Shown piece after piece: positions 1,633 to 22,044 of a stretch of DNA of 28,840 nt. Source of the DNA: a virus; the IMG/VR virus record IMGVR_UViG_3300025168_000461, positions 1 to 28,840 of that record, one strand, 5' to 3'. Under the pieces are notes generated by a model, which did no database searches, was not told the DNA's origin, and saw only the letters and a program-made list of their open reading frames with translations. The number at the start of each line of letters is the position of its first letter. The first letter of the stretch is position 1. A program made the translations under genes and the position numbers.

Positions 1633-1926
1633 TTAAGGTGCTTACGCACGTTATTTTATTATTTAAAAGGTGCTTCGCTCAGTACTTTTAATTTAAGAAC
1701 AGATGAACAAGCTTCTGAGTACAAATATAAATAGTTTGTTATGAACATATATGTTACATTATGAGGCTTTTTAAGGGATATAACAAGAAAGTAATAAAAG
1801 ACAATTTATACTCTGGTTAAGTATAGGTAATGGTCTATTATGACTAACTAAATTACCATGAGGGAGCAGTTTATTTATTTAGACTGCTTCCTTTATTTCT
1901 AATAATATAAATGGGAGTTACAACAT
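1633..1926 (+). other. Structured non-coding gap
   Basis: No convincing gene lies here. Two related hairpins come first: GTGC/GCAC (1638-1649, loop TTAC) and a bulged stem at about 1663-1692, both built on GGTGCTT. Three mini-ORFs of 13, 7 and 19 codons (1703-1744, 1741-1764, 1761-1820) follow one another through ATGA overlaps but lack Shine-Dalgarno sites. Then come hairpins TATACT/AGTATA (1807-1825, 7-nt loop) and GGTAAT/ATTACC (1826-1857), and a terminator-like hairpin at 1861-1892. The next gene has its own GGGAG at 1913-1917. A regulatory leader or a decayed gene would both fit. Confidence 0.5.
1861..1895 (+). terminator. Terminator-like hairpin 3
   Basis: AGGGAGCAGT (1861-1870) pairs with ACTGCTTCCT (1883-1892), 10 bp with one G-U and a 12-nt A/T loop, then TTATTT. 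The 3' arm ACTGCTTCC is identical to that of the hairpin at 4623-4692. It probably ends a transcript before the operon starting at 1927. Confidence 0.65.
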
Positions 1927-11578: not shown

Positions 11579-14500
11579 CTAATTTAAATACTCTTTTATT
11601 TCTCTACGTTTTCTGTTCTCATCTTTCATTCGTTTGATTCTGCTACGAACTTGTTGATTAGGTAAACGTAATAATATTTCAGGTGCACGCTCTAAACCAC
11701 GTTTTGGTCTGTCATCTGCTAATTGTTTAATTTGCCTAATACCTCTACCAAATGGTAACATAGTATACATAGTGTAATTAGTAAAGTCTTCTACGTTTCC
11801 TGTAAGCAGTTCTCCAAACGCTTCTGGAACTCTTGCAATAGGTGGTTTAAGGACGTTTAGTGGGCCAAGTTTAGAATCAAAAAAAGCCATTTCTTTTTCT
11901 TTCTTGTCTCCAAATGTATAATCAGCTAATGCTTGTACCCAATCCCAAGGTGGTGGTAATGTAGTGTCAAATAAACTAAACATAAAAGCACTACCTAGTG
12001 CATACATAAACATATCTATAGCAAAAGTATCTTTAAATCTATTGTACGATTCACTTCCTTCTCTAAAACCATTTAACTTTGCTTGTCTGTAAAATTCTTT
12101 ACGCATACGAATACTATTAAATACAAATAATTTAAACCTACCTAATACTTTACCAGTAGACGTTCTCATAAAAGCAGGTCTTGCTGCATTTTGATATAAG
12201 AACTGTGTCATTTCAATGCCACGTTCAGCACGTTCAAATACATATTGATCAGCTAATGATAAATCTTTACCAGCTTCTTTAAATCCTTCTACTGCTTGCA
12301 TACCATGAGATATAAATGCATTTAATCTATTAACACGTTCACTTTGTTTCATTAAGTATCCACCAGCATTAAGCATTACATCTGAAACACCGTAACGTTT
12401 AACAACTTCACGAACACTCTCGTCACGATTTCCTTTTTTACTTTTAGCTGCTTTAATAAAATCACGCTGAAAATCTTTTATGTTAACACCTACATTTTTT
12501 AATTGAGTTTTTAAGCCTTCATTATATTCAAACTCGTTTTTAATATAGTTCTCTATAACGCCACGTTCTTCTAAATATGTCATTAACTCTTTACGATTCT
12601 TAACAAACTCTCCATTAAATAATTTTAATACAGGCTTACCTTTAGAATCAGAAAGTAATGTTCTATATACTCGATCATTATTAAAAGAGTTCATATAATT
12701 TTTAACACCAGCACTACCTACAGTCATTGTAGCACCACCAAATATATTAGTAGACCACGTTCCAGTATTTGCTAGTAAACTAAGTAATTGGTATTGAGCT
12801 TCTAATCTTCCAAGATTATGAATCTTTCTACTAAAATACTCTTTTCTAGCTTGTCCATCTTTAGGAACAGCTTGATTGTCAAAGAAAGATATTTTCTTTC
12901 CTTTGCCTAATTTTTTCTGATACAACTTTTCTAATTGTTTTATCATTACAGCATCTGAGGTAACATAATGCATGTTCTTTTTATTAAGATGTAATAACTG
13001 CCTACCTTGCGGAGTCATCATCTTATCACTGTAAAAAGATTGATAACCTAATGAATCTCTAGCATAAAGCCTTACGTAGTCTGCCCATACATCTTTATAA
13101 TTATTATAACGTAAATTAACAGGAATTTTAGAAGCTTTTTTTCCTACATATAAATCATTAAAATATTTCATTTCTTTTTTGCTAGGCTTATAAGATTCCA
13201 TATTTTTCATCATAACATCTATTTCATTTTGAGCTTTTAATTTCATAAGATTACGATGATACCCTACGTTTAAATTGGATTGGTAATCTGTAATAGAATC
13301 ATAAGTACGCTTGTAAGGAGAACTTCCTTGTGCTATAAATGGACTTTCAAAAAATTTATCTGTACCAAGATTAGATGTTCCTTTCATAGGACTAGAAGAA
13401 ATATCAATAATATCGTTAGGATTTATAAAAGGATTATCTTGTTGCATACGTTTAGCTAAACGATCATATTCTTCAGGACTTAACTTCTTTTTTTGCTGAG
13501 CTAACCACGTGACTTGTTCTAATAATAATTTTTCATTAGAATTTTTAAAAGAATGATGCATAAAGTTTTCAGCTTTGCGTGGTTTAAACATTTCAAATGA
13601 ATTATCAGATCTGTATTTTTCACGAAACTTCTTAGCATCAACTGGTTTTTCACCTTGCTTTGTATTTAATTTAGAATTTTGTAATGCTTTTTCTAATCTA
13701 TACTCGTATCTATACCTTAACACACCTTCTAGACCAACAGTTTCAATTAACTGTTTAGTCTGTTCACGAGCATTAATAACGTCACGTTCAAATGTTTTAA
13801 AATCAAATTTACCATTTCGATCATACTTTATGTATTCATTAACATTATTGTATTTAAAATCTTTATCTATAATTGACCAATCGAAACGATCTCCTTTACT
13901 TTTAGTAGTAATCCATTGTTTTTCAAATTGTTTCCATAGATTTGTTATTTCATTATTTAATTTCTCAAATTTAACTTTATCTATTTTTGGATCTAATTTA
14001 TCCAATGTTATTTCACGTTCTCTAAACTTAAAAATATTTTCCATATAAAGCTGTTTTTCTGAAGTAGTTAATGATTGATATAGCTCATCTGTTTTCAATC
14101 GTTCTAGGTTACTTCTACCCTCGTATTTACCCATACTAGCTTCAGATTTCTTAAAGTAATTTGCTATGTTTCCTACTGGAGACATTGCTACTTTCAAAAC
14201 TCTATATGCAATTCCTTTACTTGTTTCAATTGGAGCATTTATTATTTTATGATATGTGCCAAACATTCCTTTTGCTTGCATTTCTTCATTTACAGTTAAA
14301 GGATGCATGTACCAATTTTTTAATTTAAAATCCATTTCTTTATTAGTATTCATGCTTTCTAAGTATCTATTAACCATACGAATACTATTCATGTCTAATG
14401 TAGTAGCATCTTTAGGTTTATTCATATTGTATGTAAAACCTTCATACCATTGGTTAAAATCTTTTTTCATTTCTGGATGCACATCAATTGCAGATTGAAA

Positions 14501-17500
14501 CTTTTGAATTTCTTTAAGGTCACCTTTAAATAAAGCTAATCCTTCTAAATTCTTGCTACGAATAGCATCGTTTATTTTTGTTGTAAACTCTCTGCCTTCT
14601 GCAATAGTAGGTTCATTCTTAACAGCTTCTATATCAGCTTGTTTTATATCTAAACTACCTTCCATTTTCATAGCACGATCATAAATAGTATCCATGCGTT
14701 GATAAAATGTTTTTTTAGCAGCCATAGGTATCATAGGTGAACCATGAATTAATTTATTATATTGAGGTTGGTTTACGCCTTTCTGTAATTCACGTATAGG
14801 ACTTAACAACCAATAATTAAAATAATCCTGCAACATGCCTTCAGGCAATTTTTGAGCAAGTTCTAATTGTGCTAATTCATTTTGAGTCTTTACTATTTTA
14901 GCATCTATATCGTTATTAAGAACATTGTCTCTTTCTTTTTTATTAGAAAGTTTATCTGCTAATCGCTTTACTTCATAAGCTCGTTCTTTTATCTGAGGAA
15001 TAAATTCAGAAACACTATTAACATTTTTATTTTGTTTTGCAAATTCTGTTTGGACTTTAACATACTGGTCTGCTAACAATTCTATAGTAGCGTATTGACC
15101 AAGTTCTTTACCAATAAAATCTAATCCTTCTTCAATCTTTTTTGTATCACCCTTAAACAATTCTTCTATTCTTTTAGGAGTTGCAAATGAAAGCTCTTTA
15201 GCAATTATTTTATAAAAATCTTGCAATTCCTTAGAAGTTACATTGTTTCTTATTTCAAAATTTCCTTCAATATTTTTAAACAAACCATTAGGAGATAATA
15301 TATTTTCATATAATACTCTTTGAGCATTTTGTAAATTTTTAAACTGATATGATTCTTTATCAAAACCTAAACGTTGCATTTCAAATTGTATTTTAGGATT
15401 TGTAGAATTAATACCTTTTGTTTTTTCTAGTATTTTATTTGATGAGTCTACTAATTCTAAAGCTTCAAATAAAGTTGGAGCCTTACGATTACCTTCATTG
15501 TCAAATATTTTTTGATGAGGTTTTACATTGTCGTTAGATATTTTCAATGCTTCAAATGCAGTGCCTTTAGCCATCTTCATAAAGTCTGTATATTTAATAA
15601 ACTTTTTATTATTTACTTCAAAAATAGAATTAAACAAAGTATCTCTGTATGTATTGTATGCTTTTAAATTAGGATCCTTACTGGCATCCGCTGATACGTT
15701 AACAATCTTAGTACCTAAATCTAAAAAATGTCTATGGGCACTTATGCTTGAATCAGGTGATTGAGTCCGTAACGTTACTTTATGCTTACCAAAAGAAACC
15801 CTACCGCCATTTGCTTGTACATAATCATACATATTTTGCATTGCAATTTTTGCAGATAATCCGTATCCTAATCCTTGTTTACCTGTTGCAGAATTTCTTG
15901 CTGCTTCAAAACGAAAACTAGGCGAAAACATCATAGCTTTATTGTTATTATAATCTTTAACAGATATTTCTGGTAGGTTTCCTTCAAACATTTTGTCTAT
16001 CATTATTTGATAGTCTGACTTAGAACCATTTTTATTAAACCAGTGACTTCTTTCCTTAGATACGCTTTCAAAATGTTTTATAACTTCTTTGTTTATGTTC
16101 TGAAATATTTTGATGCTGTCTGCATCTTTGTCTGCTCCACCAAGATAGATGTTGTCTTTGTGATGGGTGAAAGAACCCGCTCCTTTCTGATTTGTAAAAC
16201 CTCTAAATCGTAATTTACGAGTACCAGACATCGAGTCAGCTGGTGTACGAATAGCAAGCAAAGTAAACACGTCATTCCACTCTGCCTTAGTTGGAGTTTT
16301 AACACCTTCAGGCATGGATTGTTTCCCAGTATACATATTCCAAATTTCGCCAAGAGTGTATTTCTTGTTGAACAATACCACAGGCATTTCTCGAAAACCG
16401 TTGTCAAGATACACTTCTCCTTCTCTTAATTTTCTAGTTTTTTTAACTGGATCTATGTCAGCATAGTTTAACATCTCAGGTCTATAACCCTTTAACCAAG
16501 ACTTACCAGCAGTCTCTATATGAGGATTAGCAAAACGTTTTGTTACGTATTTACGCAATGCGTTAAAGTAGTTGTTTTTATTAAACGCCATAGAATGCTT
16601 TGCCACAAACGTTCCTTCTAATGCATTGGCTAATAATCTATTTACATCGTGATATTCTCTAAATGCAGAATCTGAATCAAATTCAAAAGATTCATTTGCA
16701 GTTTTTTCAAACTCTCCTTTTAAATCTAACTTCATTAACCTATCAGATAAAAACTTGCCTATTGGAGTATCAGGCTCTACTGTTAATTTTTCTAATACAA
16801 AATCTAAAGGTAGTTCTTCTAACCTTAATTCTGCTTTTTCGTATTCCTTAGAAAACTCTTTTATATCTTTATTTGTTTTAAAATTATTTACAATCTTAAC
16901 GCTTTTTTCTGTACCATTTATAGAAGGCATTAAAACGTTTTTTATATAAACATCAGAAAAACCTTTTGCTTGTTGTTCATTTGCTTGACTCCAAAATTGC
17001 ATAGGTAAACCTGTACCTTTACGAGTATCTTTATACGTATTTTCATATGTACCAGAGCTGACTTGCAATGTGTCAATAGGTATTTCTATAGTATTAAATT
17101 TATCTATAGAATACTTACCATTTTTATAAGTTAAATTAGATATTTCGTTAGCACCTCGTAGTTTTGCAGAACTTTCAGGCATAATAACATGTATGTTATT
17201 TACTTTCATCCACTCATTTAAATTAGGAAATGGCAATTGTCCATTAGATTTAGTTGCTAAAAAACCTTTTTCTGTTTTAGCTGCAATAACTGGTTTAAAA
17301 TGTCCTGTAACTTTAACATCTCTACCCATAGCATTTAATACTGCATCTGTAACATCAGAACGATACTCCATTGATCCATCTACATCAGAACTACCATTTG
17401 TATTTTTATCTTTAACAATTAGAACATTTAACTTTCTACCATTATTCGTACCTTCTATGTTTTTAAAACTAGATGCTACCATAGGAGTCATTCGATTACC

Positions 17501-19630
17501 CATTAAAGTAATTCTTTTATTAAAATCTGCAACACTTTTGCCATAGTTAAGATTTGGATCAAGCATGATATAAGCTTGCTCTATAGGTAGATTATTCATT
17601 TCTGCTAAATTCACTACATTAGAAATCCATTTACGTTCATGTAAACGTTCTACTTCTGGTGTGTCACCTAATAATTTTTTTTCTTTTACTAAAGATCGTT
17701 TATACGTTAACTCTAATTCAGGTTTTGATATAAAATTACCATTACTCAATATACTAAATACTTCGTCTATAGTTTTACCACCATCTCTAAACTTACTAGT
17801 CATTACAAAATCTTTATCTTTTACTCCACTAATCATATAACGACCTTGCTCAGCTAATGAATCTTGAACTAAACGAAGTTCGTTAGGAGACAATGAATAT
17901 TCAATGTTTCCTTTAACAAGACTTTGATCCATTATCTTAACTGCTTCTTTTATACCAGCATTTTCTTTAATTACATGAGTCATTAACTGGACTTCAGCTT
18001 CAGGAACTAAATATTGTATAGGCATACGTTCATATTTTTCACCTATAGAAACATCTCCTACTTTATCGTTTGTTATTTTACGATAAGAAGTAAGTTTTCC
18101 ATCTGTAAGCGTAACAACATCCATTGGTTGAAAAGGTTGTACTCTATTACGATACCAACTACGCATTTCAGAATTACGATCTTTCGCTACTTGGTTTCCA
18201 TATTTTGTTTTTATAGAATCCATAAACACTTCCACATCAGCAATATTATCTTTAATAGATGCTTCTGCTTGTTCGTTGATAAACTTACCTATCTCACTTG
18301 TTGTGCCAAGTTTCTTATCCACTTTATTTATTTTACTAGACAAATCTTTTATGTTGACTAATTCTTTTTCTACGTTGTCTATTCTATCTAACCTAGCATC
18401 GTTTATTATAGAGTTACTAATTATAGTAGCGTTTTCTATAATACCACGTTCAGCTGTATAAATCTCTGCTGCTTTAGTTCGGTAATAATCTTGTATATCT
18501 TTTTCTGTATATTCAATTTTATTTTTTTCAAAATGCCTAATAGCAGATTGCCTGAATAAAGGCTTTTTATTTGTACGCTTTGCCCAAGCCTCAAGCCATT
18601 GTAAAGACGCTCCTGTGCTACCACCATGCCCCTCAGAATTAAACTCTTTAGTCATAGGGTGTTCACGAAGAATGTATTCTTGTGCATCCTTACTTACTTT
18701 AGTCCAATCTTCTGATTTTTCTGGTTTAAATATTTCTTCAGCATTTCTATTTTGATTTATCCATTTACCAGCTTCTGTTTCCCTAGCAGGTCTAGTATTG
18801 TAACCAAAAAATCCACCTAATAAATATTCATAGATTTGCATTTCTGTAGGATCATTACGAAGAGTAGAAGGTACTCCCATAAACGCACTAGCAACTCCAG
18901 CACGTAATAATTTATTAGCTCTGTCTACTTGTTCAGGATTTCCTTTATAAAACTTACCTAAAGATACAAAATTACCAATACCACCAAATGCTCCTCCTGC
19001 AATGGCTCCACCAATATAAGAATCAACAATAGCATCTTGACCTTTCCATACGTTACTTATAGCACTAGCAGACGCTAATCCTAACGCTTCTTCTGTAATG
19101 GCTCTAGTACGTGAACCTTGTTTTAAAAAGTCTAATGTATCTGCACCACTTTTTGCTAACCCTTTATCAAATAATTTTTTAGTAGCTCTAGAGCCAACCA
19201 TAGGTAAAGCAATTTTATCTAAAGCATCTATACTATCCATTACTCCACGTGTAATAGTACCTCCTAAAACTTCACTGGTTTTTTTACCAGTAACTTTAGC
19301 GGCAACTTTAGCTAATCCAACAACAGGTGCTTTTAATATAGCTGGAGCAAATCCTGCTAAATGACCAAGTTGTCTAAAGATTGCTTCACCTGTATTACGA
19401 GGTTCTTTAGGGATAAGATCAAAAGTAGTAAGACCTTCAATGAAACCAGCCTGTGCTTGTTGTAAGCCACGCTGTAAACTAAACTCGCTTTGAGATCGTT
19501 TAAACTTTATTTCATTTTGTTCTGCAAGACTTTCCAGCTCATCAAGCTGGTCGTCATTGAACATTGTAGGGTTTGTTTTATAGGTTCGTATTAAGCCTTG
19601 AACCTTTAACGCTTCATAAGGTGATGCCAT
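11579..19630 (-). CDS. Giant internal/ejection-type virion protein (2683 aa)
   Basis: It is the largest gene here. The N-terminal about 95 residues match those of the neighbouring 216-aa protein (see findings). Hydrophobic Gly/Ala-rich stretches lie at about 90-115 and 205-224, and another near 2536-2555 just before a PPPWDW motif. Between them is a very long charged, helix-rich body. The C-terminal region (RFKLFVFNSIRMRKEFYRQA at about 2498-2517, then a very basic tail) looks familiar from large proteins of uncultured marine phages. I see no catalytic motif (no convincing lysozyme, protease or RNA-polymerase signature). Position last in the late operon, after tail and coiled-coil genes, fits a protein carried in the head and injected with DNA, as with T7 gp16, P22 gp16 or the N4 virion polymerase. 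It has no clear Shine-Dalgarno. Confidence 0.6.
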   Translation of the reverse strand: MASPYEALKVQGLIRTYKTNPTMFNDDQLDELESLAEQNEIKFKRSQSEFSLQRGLQQAQAGFIEGLTTFDLIPKEPRNTGEAIFRQLGHLAGFAPAILKAPVVGLAKVAAKVTGKKTSEVLGGTITRGVMDSIDALDKIALPMVGSRATKKLFDKGLAKSGADTLDFLKQGSRTRAITEEALGLASASAISNVWKGQDAIVDSYIGGAIAGGAFGGIGNFVSLGKFYKGNPEQVDRANKLLRAGVASAFMGVPSTLRNDPTEMQIYEYLLGGFFGYNTRPARETEAGKWINQNRNAEEIFKPEKSEDWTKVSKDAQEYILREHPMTKEFNSEGHGGSTGASLQWLEAWAKRTNKKPLFRQSAIRHFEKNKIEYTEKDIQDYYRTKAAEIYTAERGIIENATIISNSIINDARLDRIDNVEKELVNIKDLSSKINKVDKKLGTTSEIGKFINEQAEASIKDNIADVEVFMDSIKTKYGNQVAKDRNSEMRSWYRNRVQPFQPMDVVTLTDGKLTSYRKITNDKVGDVSIGEKYERMPIQYLVPEAEVQLMTHVIKENAGIKEAVKIMDQSLVKGNIEYSLSPNELRLVQDSLAEQGRYMISGVKDKDFVMTSKFRDGGKTIDEVFSILSNGNFISKPELELTYKRSLVKEKKLLGDTPEVERLHERKWISNVVNLAEMNNLPIEQAYIMLDPNLNYGKSVADFNKRITLMGNRMTPMVASSFKNIEGTNNGRKLNVLIVKDKNTNGSSDVDGSMEYRSDVTDAVLNAMGRDVKVTGHFKPVIAAKTEKGFLATKSNGQLPFPNLNEWMKVNNIHVIMPESSAKLRGANEISNLTYKNGKYSIDKFNTIEIPIDTLQVSSGTYENTYKDTRKGTGLPMQFWSQANEQQAKGFSDVYIKNVLMPSINGTEKSVKIVNNFKTNKDIKEFSKEYEKAELRLEELPLDFVLEKLTVEPDTPIGKFLSDRLMKLDLKGEFEKTANESFEFDSDSAFREYHDVNRLLANALEGTFVAKHSMAFNKNNYFNALRKYVTKRFANPHIETAGKSWLKGYRPEMLNYADIDPVKKTRKLREGEVYLDNGFREMPVVLFNKKYTLGEIWNMYTGKQSMPEGVKTPTKAEWNDVFTLLAIRTPADSMSGTRKLRFRGFTNQKGAGSFTHHKDNIYLGGADKDADSIKIFQNINKEVIKHFESVSKERSHWFNKNGSKSDYQIMIDKMFEGNLPEISVKDYNNNKAMMFSPSFRFEAARNSATGKQGLGYGLSAKIAMQNMYDYVQANGGRVSFGKHKVTLRTQSPDSSISAHRHFLDLGTKIVNVSADASKDPNLKAYNTYRDTLFNSIFEVNNKKFIKYTDFMKMAKGTAFEALKISNDNVKPHQKIFDNEGNRKAPTLFEALELVDSSNKILEKTKGINSTNPKIQFEMQRLGFDKESYQFKNLQNAQRVLYENILSPNGLFKNIEGNFEIRNNVTSKELQDFYKIIAKELSFATPKRIEELFKGDTKKIEEGLDFIGKELGQYATIELLADQYVKVQTEFAKQNKNVNSVSEFIPQIKERAYEVKRLADKLSNKKERDNVLNNDIDAKIVKTQNELAQLELAQKLPEGMLQDYFNYWLLSPIRELQKGVNQPQYNKLIHGSPMIPMAAKKTFYQRMDTIYDRAMKMEGSLDIKQADIEAVKNEPTIAEGREFTTKINDAIRSKNLEGLALFKGDLKEIQKFQSAIDVHPEMKKDFNQWYEGFTYNMNKPKDATTLDMNSIRMVNRYLESMNTNKEMDFKLKNWYMHPLTVNEEMQAKGMFGTYHKIINAPIETSKGIAYRVLKVAMSPVGNIANYFKKSEASMGKYEGRSNLERLKTDELYQSLTTSEKQLYMENIFKFREREITLDKLDPKIDKVKFEKLNNEITNLWKQFEKQWITTKSKGDRFDWSIIDKDFKYNNVNEYIKYDRNGKFDFKTFERDVINAREQTKQLIETVGLEGVLRYRYEYRLEKALQNSKLNTKQGEKPVDAKKFREKYRSDNSFEMFKPRKAENFMHHSFKNSNEKLLLEQVTWLAQQKKKLSPEEYDRLAKRMQQDNPFINPNDIIDISSSPMKGTSNLGTDKFFESPFIAQGSSPYKRTYDSITDYQSNLNVGYHRNLMKLKAQNEIDVMMKNMESYKPSKKEMKYFNDLYVGKKASKIPVNLRYNNYKDVWADYVRLYARDSLGYQSFYSDKMMTPQGRQLLHLNKKNMHYVTSDAVMIKQLEKLYQKKLGKGKKISFFDNQAVPKDGQARKEYFSRKIHNLGRLEAQYQLLSLLANTGTWSTNIFGGATMTVGSAGVKNYMNSFNNDRVYRTLLSDSKGKPVLKLFNGEFVKNRKELMTYLEERGVIENYIKNEFEYNEGLKTQLKNVGVNIKDFQRDFIKAAKSKKGNRDESVREVVKRYGVSDVMLNAGGYLMKQSERVNRLNAFISHGMQAVEGFKEAGKDLSLADQYVFERAERGIEMTQFLYQNAARPAFMRTSTGKVLGRFKLFVFNSIRMRKEFYRQAKLNGFREGSESYNRFKDTFAIDMFMYALGSAFMFSLFDTTLPPPWDWVQALADYTFGDKKEKEMAFFDSKLGPLNVLKPPIARVPEAFGELLTGNVEDFTNYTMYTMLPFGRGIRQIKQLADDRPKRGLERAPEILLRLPNQQVRSRIKRMKDENRKRREIKEYLN

Positions 19631-19633
19631 ATA

Positions 19634-20284
19634 TTAATTTAATAATTCTAATAGGTTCATATATGTTCTACCAGCGTCTGTTCTAGAAAAATCTTTTAAT
19701 CCTATATCGCCACCCATAGGAATAGGTTGACCAGATCTGCTTGTTAATGGAATAGGTTGACCTGAAGTAGAATTTAAAGGAAATCTATTTCTACGTATTT
19801 GTCTATTTGTTTGACCTGATAATAAACGTTGACCTTCACCAAGTTGTAAAGGTTGATTGCCTTCACCAAGCTGCAAAACTCTATCCCTAACACTTGAAAC
19901 AGGATTGCTTTGAGTTCTTCCCATTCTTGATCGAATGTTATTAAAAACATTTGAAGCTCCTTTAGACAACCCACGAGCACCTTTTACTGCTAAACCACCA
20001 CTAACTGCACCACCAACTAAATTACCTAGTAATTCTGCACCAGTATTATTAGCACCATACACAGATTCACCTCGTGTTTCTGGTCTTAATGAATTTGGCA
20101 ATAAACCAAAAGTAGCTGCTTCACTTAATCCGTACAAAGCTGTACGTACAGGTTTACTGCCACGTTTAAAATCCATACCCATTTGCCTAGATAATGTAGC
20201 TACCACTTCTGCTTGCTCATCACTATACTTGTTAGGATTTTGATTATATTCTGAAATTAATCTTCTTACTATATCTGGATTCAT
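19634..20284 (-). CDS. Internal protein sharing an N-terminus with the giant protein (216 aa)
   Basis: Residues 9-41 align without gaps to residues 13-45 of the giant protein, with identities at L, I, Y, NP, D, Q, L, Q and FKR. Both continue with a similar region ending N-T-G-x-x-x-x-x-x-L-G and a Gly/Ala-rich hydrophobic stretch (here about 84-105). The C-terminal part holds two pairs of short tandem repeats: LQLGEG twice (9-residue spacing) and SGQPIP twice (10-residue spacing), also visible in the DNA. The start follows AAGGT. It ends 3 nt before the giant gene. A small virion or ejection protein is likely. Confidence 0.6.
   Translation of the reverse strand: MNPDIVRRLISEYNQNPNKYSDEQAEVVATLSRQMGMDFKRGSKPVRTALYGLSEAATFGLLPNSLRPETRGESVYGANNTGAELLGNLVGGAVSGGLAVKGARGLSKGASNVFNNIRSRMGRTQSNPVSSVRDRVLQLGEGNQPLQLGEGQRLLSGQTNRQIRRNRFPLNSTSGQPIPLTSRSGQPIPMGGDIGLKDFSRTDAGRTYMNLLELLN
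19719..19877. repeat. Two pairs of short in-frame tandem repeats
   Basis: GGAATAGGTTGACC occurs at 19719-19732 and 19749-19762 (30-nt offset). CCTTCACCAAG plus a variant tail occurs near 19833-19850 and 19860-19877 (27-nt offset). Both offsets are multiples of three, and they encode the SGQPIP and LQLGEG repeats of the 216-aa protein. They look like slippage duplications in a flexible C-terminal region. Confidence 0.75.
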
Positions 20285-20293
20285 AATATTACC

Positions 20294-21055
20294 TTAGTAG
20301 TTGCTATTAAGCATTGTTCGATTTAATAAATTATCAGGATCTTGTTGTCTAGTTTTTTGATAATAAGTAGTAGGTAAAACAATATTAGGGTTAGTATCTC
20401 TAAATATATTATAGCTTTGATTATTAGCAGCATTTACAGCTGTATTTAAACCACTATCTCTAGCTCCTCTTTCTTCTCGAGTACCCAAATTACCATCTAT
20501 TAAACCAAGGGTAAGATTATCAATTCCTTCATAAACAGGTTGTAAAGCATTATAAGCACCAGTTACTATTTGATTTAAAAAACTACCGCCTCCTGTTTGG
20601 GTTTGATTAAATCGTTTTTGTGCTTCATCTACATTCTGTTCATTTAATAAATTTAGTTTTTCTTGGTCTGATATAGCTTCAGTAGTAGTTGTAGTTACAT
20701 CATAGATTGCTTTAGCACGTTCTTCTTGTGCTTTTTTAATAGCATCTGATCGTAATTGTGATTTAATCCTTGCATCTTGATCTGTTTCTCTAAGTCTTAA
20801 ATCATCATCAAATTGTGTTTGATTTTGGTCAAGCCTTTCTTTTTGCATACCTTCTGAAGAACGTAGCCTTCTACTTTGCATACCTTCAGCAGATCTAAGT
20901 CTTCTTTGTTGTAATTCAAAATCTGATCTTAATTGTCTTTCTTGCATAGCTCTTTGATTTCTCATACGCACTGCATCCAAAAGATTGCGAGCTGTATTTT
21001 GACCAAAGTCATATCCAGTGTATGCTGTTTGCATTTGTGGTACTGATATAGCCAT
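20294..21055 (-). CDS. Coiled-coil internal virion protein (253 aa)
   Basis: The protein begins MAISVPQMQTAYTGYDFGQ. Its first half (about 25-120) is a long Gln/Arg/Glu-rich helix with an 11-residue repeat, LRSDFELQQRR, LRSAEGMQSRR, LRSSEGMQKER. The second half has a Gly-rich linker (TQTGGGSFLN) and a polar C-terminus rich in Asn. The composition and place between the S74-domain protein and the 216-aa and giant proteins are like those of podovirus internal-core proteins (T7 gp14/gp15 region), which form a tube for DNA ejection. That role is inferred. A strong AGGAGG lies upstream; the start overlaps the previous stop by one base. Confidence 0.5.
   Translation of the reverse strand: MAISVPQMQTAYTGYDFGQNTARNLLDAVRMRNQRAMQERQLRSDFELQQRRLRSAEGMQSRRLRSSEGMQKERLDQNQTQFDDDLRLRETDQDARIKSQLRSDAIKKAQEERAKAIYDVTTTTTEAISDQEKLNLLNEQNVDEAQKRFNQTQTGGGSFLNQIVTGAYNALQPVYEGIDNLTLGLIDGNLGTREERGARDSGLNTAVNAANNQSYNIFRDTNPNIVLPTTYYQKTRQQDPDNLLNRTMLNSNY
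20845..20943. repeat. Three 33-bp tandem repeats in coding region
   Basis: Units at 20845-20877, 20878-20910 and 20911-20943 share a period of 33 nt, i.e. 11 codons. The first two are close (both start GCATACCTTC); the third is diverged. They encode the 11-residue helical repeat of the 253-aa protein, a period compatible with a three-turn helical coiled coil. Confidence 0.7.
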
Positions 21056-22044
21056 TATGCTATCCTCCTAAAGTTTACATCTATTTTAGAGTAATCTACT
21101 TTTAACACTCCATTATCTATTACAGAGGCACTAGGTACTTCTTGAGCCATAACTCCTTCGTATCTACCTTCACCGTATATTTTGTCTTTGTAGTCAAATT
21201 CATAAATATTAATTCCAGAATTAGACACTCCAGTTAACTCTATATTTGTTTTTAAATTACGATCAGAAGCTAAAGCAGCTGGATTCCCTCCCATAGGTAA
21301 AGGTATTTGACTTACTCCTGCTGGATTACTTGTACCTCCACCTCCAAACATTCCTGCTAAACCTGCTGGGTTTCCTAATGCTGCTGAACCAAGACCTCCT
21401 ACTAAACCTAACATTGAATTTGCCCAAGCTCCTTGAGCGTTTTGATTTTGAACATCTTGGTTGTAATTAGCTGTTCTAATATATTGCTCATATGTATTTT
21501 GTGCATCTGTATTAAATTGATTGTTTTGTAATTGCCTACTATCTATTTGCGAACCAAACTGTCCAGCTTGTCCATAAGCCCCTGCCTGTTGTCCATATGC
21601 TCCCATAGCCATGTTACCAAATCCTTGAGCTGCATTTAAACTTTGATTTAAGATATTCCCCATTCCTTGACGAACTTGTTCTCCTGATCTATTTAAGTTT
21701 GCTGCTCCTAATAAGTTAGCCATCCCACCATTACCCATACCTCTAGAAGCTAGAGATTGATTCATGTTTCTGTTTGTTTGGGCATTAATATCGCCTATTT
21801 GATTTCTTAACTGACCAAACTGTCTTTGATTCATGGCAGAATTTGGATTAAGCATATCTTGATATGTTTGAGTAAACTGTCCACCTAAAGATCCAAGTCT
21901 TCCAGCAGTACTATTTAAATTATTAATAGATGCTAACATGTTAGGATTTGCGGTATAATCTGATTGCTGAAGATCGTACCCAAAGTTTTGATCTAAAGCT
22001 TTTGGTTTACCTAAAATGCTTCCTATTGTATCTAAAAATCCCAT
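21055..22044 (-). CDS. Virion protein with C-terminal S74 chaperone-like domain (329 aa)
   Basis: The N-terminal about 260 residues are rich in Gln, Asn, Gly, Met and Ala (e.g. QSLASRGMGNGGMANLLGAA), as in ejected DNA-transfer or internal-core proteins. From about residue 265 the sequence SDRNLKTNIELTGVSNSGI and then YEFDYKDK...YEGVMAQEVP matches the start of the peptidase S74 intramolecular chaperone domain, including the S-D-x-x-L-K that carries the Ser-Asp cleavage dyad. The domain seems short: it ends at VDYSKIDVNFRRIA without the long helical end of tail-spike versions, so self-cleavage is uncertain. A good AGAGG lies upstream. Confidence 0.65.
   Translation of the reverse strand: MGFLDTIGSILGKPKALDQNFGYDLQQSDYTANPNMLASINNLNSTAGRLGSLGGQFTQTYQDMLNPNSAMNQRQFGQLRNQIGDINAQTNRNMNQSLASRGMGNGGMANLLGAANLNRSGEQVRQGMGNILNQSLNAAQGFGNMAMGAYGQQAGAYGQAGQFGSQIDSRQLQNNQFNTDAQNTYEQYIRTANYNQDVQNQNAQGAWANSMLGLVGGLGSAALGNPAGLAGMFGGGGTSNPAGVSQIPLPMGGNPAALASDRNLKTNIELTGVSNSGINIYEFDYKDKIYGEGRYEGVMAQEVPSASVIDNGVLKVDYSKIDVNFRRIA

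Follow-up and report, generated by a model that had tools for sequence, protein, structure and literature searches.

Two neighbouring genes and their common N-terminal module

The window, a 28,840-nucleotide stretch of phage DNA, carries two adjacent genes on its minus strand, where the other window genes and protein features given below also lie. The giant gene (11579..19630) encodes a protein of 2683 aa, in which the open reading frame, its relatives, and structure modelling with fold searches indicate an N-terminal module, a predicted virion RNA polymerase core of the two-barrel (crAss/QDE-1) type, and a long C-terminal region. The small gene (19634..20284) encodes a 216-aa protein, which BLASTP and profiles identify as an apparent paralogue of the giant's N-terminus, composed of the module and a variable tail. 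The module covers residues ~1-97 of the giant (19340..19630; BLASTP, profiles, and conservation) and residues ~1-92 of the small protein (20009..20284; alignment and structure model), and the variable tail of the latter comprises residues 112-216 (19637..19951; family alignment). The giant module follows the pattern LI..Y..NP..F.D.Q....LA......FKR ... GF.EG.TT..L.P..PRNT.EAI...LGHL.GFAP.

A preliminary description of this DNA had noted an ungapped match between residues 13-45 of the giant and 9-41 of the small protein with 12 identities of 33, and we reproduced this count exactly. Taken alone, the 33-residue core is marginal, since the best 33-mer in shuffled 2683 x 216 comparisons reached 12 identities in 4 of 200 shuffles, a point in favour of a chance or convergent likeness between two helical leaders. 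However, the likeness extends beyond the core over ~95-110 residues. BLASTP aligned residues 10-121 of the giant with residues 6-113 of the small protein (E 4e-6), and the gapped Smith-Waterman alignment of the N-termini scored 90, a value that 0 of 5000 shuffles attained, the highest of them reaching 60. Comparison of the two family profiles of the N-termini, a check of the kind that the description had proposed, placed the similarity far above random (hhalign E 4.8e-12, probability 97.6%), and the order of motifs was co-conserved over 74 and 73 distinct sequences. Searched against 905 ORFs from related phages, the small-family N-terminal profile matched giants and members of the small family and nothing else. 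The profile score, the shuffles, and the co-conserved motifs leave a chance resemblance a negligible probability, and at the sequence level the two N-termini are almost certainly homologous. The N-T-G once thought common to both proteins proved a coincidence, as (N)TGEAIF of the giant pairs in the family alignments with (T/S)RGE-S/V-Y/F of the small protein and not with its NTG at residues 80-82.

In the model of the small protein, the module contains helices at residues 3-15, 22-35, and 45-57, with a pLDDT of ~94 for residues 1-40, and the model is poor past residue 80 (pLDDT 39-77). A fold search with it found no match better than E 1 among viral structures, and Z did not exceed 2.3 in the PDB, a result that is uninformative for such a short helical piece. 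Conservation of the module in the giant was 0.68-0.78, as opposed to ~0.48 for the whole protein, and equalled or exceeded that of the catalytic core. The module is also the conserved part of the small protein, whose tail varies even among phages with ~90% identical giants. It usually starts at residues 1-4, and N-terminal extensions of 13-88 residues also occur. PHROGs and Pfam scans of the small and giant proteins returned nothing meaningful, and the module had no match in the libraries searched; it may represent a domain family that they do not include.

Relatives and origin of the small copy

No match to the giants or the small protein was found by tblastn in the INPHARED phages. The lineage is nevertheless present in many environmental viromes: relatives in IMG/VR comprised 225 loci with 7815 ORFs, among which the distinct modules numbered 74 for the small protein and 73 for the giant. 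The small gene preceded the giant on one strand in 206 of the 223 module-bearing loci, whereas 10 carried the giant only and 7 the small gene only, these being truncated contigs or giant-only lineages; several loci share contigs, so the independent cases are nearer the 74 small and 73 giant distinct modules. No third module-bearing gene occurred across the 225 loci and 7815 ORFs. The gap between the two genes was usually 0-40 nt, and some lineages had one or more genes in between, frequently including one with an HExxH motif. In IMGVR_UViG_2716884438_000001 (L135/L215), the pair lies 4.4 kb apart with putative tail or fibre-like genes in between, indicating that adjacency is not strictly required. 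L012, L013, L014, L043, L048, L049, and L059 have an HExxH zinc-protease-like (zincin-like) gene between the pair; these genes occur in a minority of lineages and are of two dissimilar kinds, one of which weakly matches Zn_peptidase_2.

The maximum-likelihood tree of 62 modules separated a small clade from a giant clade by one split (100/100) with one label change, although long branches come together at its root, whose placement is therefore uncertain. In the deep lineages L091/L092, L130, and L134, the module is present on the giant but not on the gene upstream of it, which suggests that the small copy was most likely derived from the giant. Alternatively, the small copy may have been lost in these lineages. 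An ancient partial duplication, raised earlier as one option, is strongly supported by the single clade split together with the giant-only lineages, and from the sequences one such duplication of the giant's N-terminus is the most likely source of the small copy.

The giant protein as a predicted virion RNA polymerase

Neither Pfam nor PHROGs assigned the giant to a family, a PDB sequence search gave chance matches only, and the preliminary description did not recognise the protein as a polymerase. We modelled residues 515-1360 (15551..18088) with AF2 using 33 relatives, which gave a pLDDT of 85.6 and a pTM of 0.84. The first Foldseek match of this core in the PDB was 6vr4_A, the virion-packaged RNA polymerase of phi14:2 (E 2.8e-9), followed by QDE-1, and all 15 of 15 matches under 1e-3 were two-barrel polymerases. 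VIA-align gave Z scores of 18.8 with QDE-1, 13.3 over 667 residues with 6vr4, and 10.9 with the P23-45 gp96 vRNAP. Two-barrel polymerases thus headed both lists and covered nearly the whole model.

The DKDAD sequence at residues 1167-1171 (16118..16132) aligns with DFDID of phi14:2 gp66 and is the predicted Mg2+-binding DxDxD motif of double-psi beta-barrel A. D1167, D1169, and D1171 were invariant in two alignments of relatives, and wider variants of the motif include GADKDSDS and GADNDGDS. An RxP element, R1128-T-P1130 (16241..16249), precedes the first catalytic Asp by 39 residues, and the spacing is the same in phi14:2 gp66 and crAss001 gp50. Collinear hhalign blocks joined the giant core to gp66 at 155-194/856-896, 233-314/958-1070, 611-662/1319-1370 (52 columns, ungapped), and 721-810/1528-1621. 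Unguided profile blocks against gp66 and crAss001 gp50 fell in the D/K/SAK region, the DxDxD region, and the GKxGLG...VNxSADAsxDP region. Single sequence-profile scores to gp66 were weak (best E 0.0015, probability 17%), and so is each block alone; the case for a polymerase therefore lies in the common order of the blocks together with the fold. The model also contains a 37-residue helix at 723-759, accompanied by a collinear hhalign block with gp66, where the bridge helix and trigger loop that follow barrel A in such polymerases may lie. PF00940, which marks single-subunit polymerases of the N4 (T7-like) type, was not matched in seven relatives, although no positive control responded in that search. 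Taken together, the model and motifs indicate that the giant is very probably a two-barrel RNA polymerase.

Some relatives carry insertions in the polymerase core. An AlkB-type 2OG-Fe(II) oxygenase domain (PF13532) is inserted shortly past the DxDxD block in L018:10001-19090 (residues ~1380-1514; E 1.5e-25) and L017:374-9730 (residues ~1328-1464; E 3.1e-25). A DUF4326-like insertion of ~110 residues (E ~4e-4, under the Pfam cut-off) is found in L003:9282-17672 (residues ~1080-1144) and L018 (residues ~1085-1154). The window giant has neither insertion, although the L003 giant is otherwise ~90% identical to it.

The record in the window is a fragment, and the head genes were read in relatives. 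In G002, a long, complete-looking relative with a terminal repeat, the genes for TerL (phrog_38), portal (phrog_156), and MCP (phrog_1328) share one strand in a cassette of which the giant is the last gene; the genome of this lineage is near 44 kb in a relative, of which the giant gene takes about a fifth. In the window, the small gene is directly preceded upstream by a gene for a 253-aa Gln/Arg-rich coiled protein (20294..21055), a putative ejection or internal protein, which lacks the module by its ORF and had no module match in relatives. The next gene (21055..22044) encodes a 329-aa protein, also without the module, that shows DNA-ejection and virion structural PHROG similarity and, by PHROGs and Pfam, a peptidase S74 C-terminus. 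Such S74 ends are intramolecular chaperone-like domains whose usual home is tail fibres. The predicted polymerase fold, the position as last gene of the virion cassette, and precedent in other phages suggest that the polymerase is packaged, and from this analysis the giant is probably carried in the virion. A function as a packaged crAss/QDE-1-type RNA polymerase can thus be proposed, on the basis of the model, for a giant protein with no family match.

We also looked for promoter repeats of the polymerase in the early genes. The ACTGCTTCCTTTAT repeats found there resemble the 3' arms of terminator-like hairpins and were rejected as promoters. The hairpins, with the arm ACTGCTTCC followed by TTTAT, lie at window positions 1860-1893 and near 522, 1161, and 4681, as well as in the same region of L100, and they are possibly terminators of one polymerase.

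Part of a giant with 77% identity to that of the window is encoded on a 5.3-kb GTDB contig (L093) that was binned in a Flavobacteriaceae MAG. Shine-Dalgarno-like sites precede 23 of the 30 window genes, against a background of 7.6%; strong sites of this kind are unusual for Bacteroidota and speak against such a host, and the contig is therefore possibly misbinned.

Possible roles of the module and comparison with known systems

A shared signal for packaging or ejection, as the preliminary description suggested, remains the best functional reading of the module, but the module occurs on the predicted virion polymerase and its neighbour only and is absent from the cassette's other putative ejection proteins. 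Since these other likely internal proteins lack it, the module does not seem to be needed for packaging as such. It was also not detected in the virion proteins of crAss001, phi14:2, and P23-45 (best E 0.22), which argues against a general signal for such polymerases. We infer packaging, ejection, the docking partner, and the role of the small protein from the genes, models, and precedents described here. The module could serve packaged cargo in docking or ejection, a reading that stops a little short of probable.

On balance we find plausible the whole scheme, in which a packaged single-subunit two-barrel polymerase uses the module and the following Gly-rich segment as a delivery domain and the small module-only paralogue shares its dock. 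During assembly, the module and Gly-rich segment would dock the polymerase to the portal or the internal-protein core; alternatively, the module would dock it to the tail tube or the host membrane during ejection. The polymerase would reach the host cell together with the first DNA and transcribe the early genes. Precedent exists in crAss001, whose capsid packs RNAP subunits and other cargo, probably unfolded for ejection (PMC10172136). The small protein would occupy the same docking site as the giant, acting as a stoichiometric filler, a guide, or a channel component, and its tail would be free to diverge. More tentatively, the module might be a transferable delivery tag in an uncultured lineage of marine phages with short genomes, loading proteins into the virion and leading them through the tail. 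If so, a reporter fused to the module should travel with the particle.

Hydropathy across the families confirmed for both proteins the Gly-rich hydrophobic stretch that had been noted earlier behind the module. In the giant, a hydrophobic segment directly follows the module at residues 88-110 (LGHLAGFAPAILKAPVVGLAKVA; 19301..19369), and a conserved glycine-zipper stretch lies at residues 200-225 (AIVDSYIGGAIAGGAFGGIGNFVSLG; 18956..19033; conservation and hydropathy). The Gly-rich hydrophobic stretch of the small protein lies at residues 80-100 (19985..20047). The most hydrophobic 19-mer begins at ~78-94 in nearly all of 35 aligned small proteins, and the giants have their peak either directly past the module (~82-113) or at ~188-251. 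These peaks, which many giants and almost every small protein show past the module, and the conserved GGAIAGGAFGGIG stretch would suit a membrane-acting ejectosome domain, whose helices and Gly-rich or glycine-zipper stretches would enter the host envelope and help form a channel for DNA and protein. Precedent comes from T7 and from crAss001, for which insertion of a TM helix of the cargo protein gp45 into the membrane of the host has been proposed (PMC10172136). However, the segments are borderline for membrane helices (Kyte-Doolittle about 0.9-1.7) and the conserved helical part is polar and soluble-looking, and we regard such a role as rather unlikely.

The strict 1:1 pairing and usual adjacency of the two genes, together with a helical, hairpin-like start that suits self-association, raise the possibility of an interaction domain in place of a delivery signal. 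The small protein would then be an accessory subunit or inhibitor that pairs with the giant through the module by homotypic docking and prevents the polymerase from folding or becoming active before it is ejected. RNAP-associated virion proteins are also encoded beside the polymerase in phi14:2 and crAss001. The giant-only lineages, however, do without a module-bearing partner, and a hypervariable tail is unusual for a polymerase subunit, so that an interaction domain appears unlikely.

Cleavage at maturation, which the preliminary description had also considered, found no support. A head-targeting propeptide would follow the logic of T4, in which internal proteins have a conserved N-terminus in common and a variable remainder (PMC9026906). 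However, the S78 and S49 prohead proteases were not found in seven long related contigs, in which the controls worked, nor was S77 in the same contigs, for which no positive control responded; these phages may use a protease of another type. No head protein matched a protease, and the HExxH genes between the pair are confined to a minority of lineages. The module is moreover a folded unit of ~95 aa that can begin 13-88 residues into the protein, unlike a short cleaved leader. A cleaved propeptide is accordingly very improbable. The module is a compact domain, open to experiment, through which the loading and ejection of giant virion enzymes can be studied, and the small paralogue serves as a naturally occurring test of the module without the polymerase.

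Among known systems, phi14:2 gp66 (6vr4) and crAss001 gp50 are closest to the giant in the DxDxD motif with RxP 39 residues before it, 6vr4 being the top PDB fold match. Further collinear motifs are SAK, GKxGLG, and VNxSADAsxDP, the last set against LNAFVDNAKDP, and in both phages, as here, a giant polypeptide is encoded beside the virion cassette. They differ in having DFDxD where the giant has DKDxD, in genomes of ~100 kb for crAss-like phages as opposed to ~44 kb, and in the tested virion proteins of crAss001 and phi14:2, which lack the module. In addition, no relative of the giant is detectable by tblastn in INPHARED, which holds crAss-like phages. QDE-1 and plant RDR gave the best structural match (Z 18.8 over ~510 residues) and have the single-chain two-barrel architecture in common with the giant, but they are eukaryotic, act in RNA interference, and have no phage module.

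In N4 (Schitoviridae), a short-tailed phage, a giant polymerase is packaged and injected, as is proposed here for the giant. The N4 vRNAP has a T7-like single-subunit fold and not a two-barrel one, and the genomes are 59-80 kb against ~44 kb. P23-45 gp96 is, as proposed here, a two-barrel virion RNAP within a giant virion protein (Z 10.9). However, it is fused to the tail tape measure (PMC10770324) of a long-tailed phage and lacks the module. The capsid targeting sequences of T4 are short cleaved leaders common to internal proteins (PMC9026906), and in IPI-IPIII, as in the two proteins described here, the N-terminus is common and the remainder divergent. T4-type sequences are, however, short propeptides (about 10-20 aa), with about 10 residues being sufficient in T4 and cleaved by gp21, whereas the module found here is helical and spans ~95 residues, and seven related contigs showed no S78, S49, or S77 protease (the S77 search being without a control).
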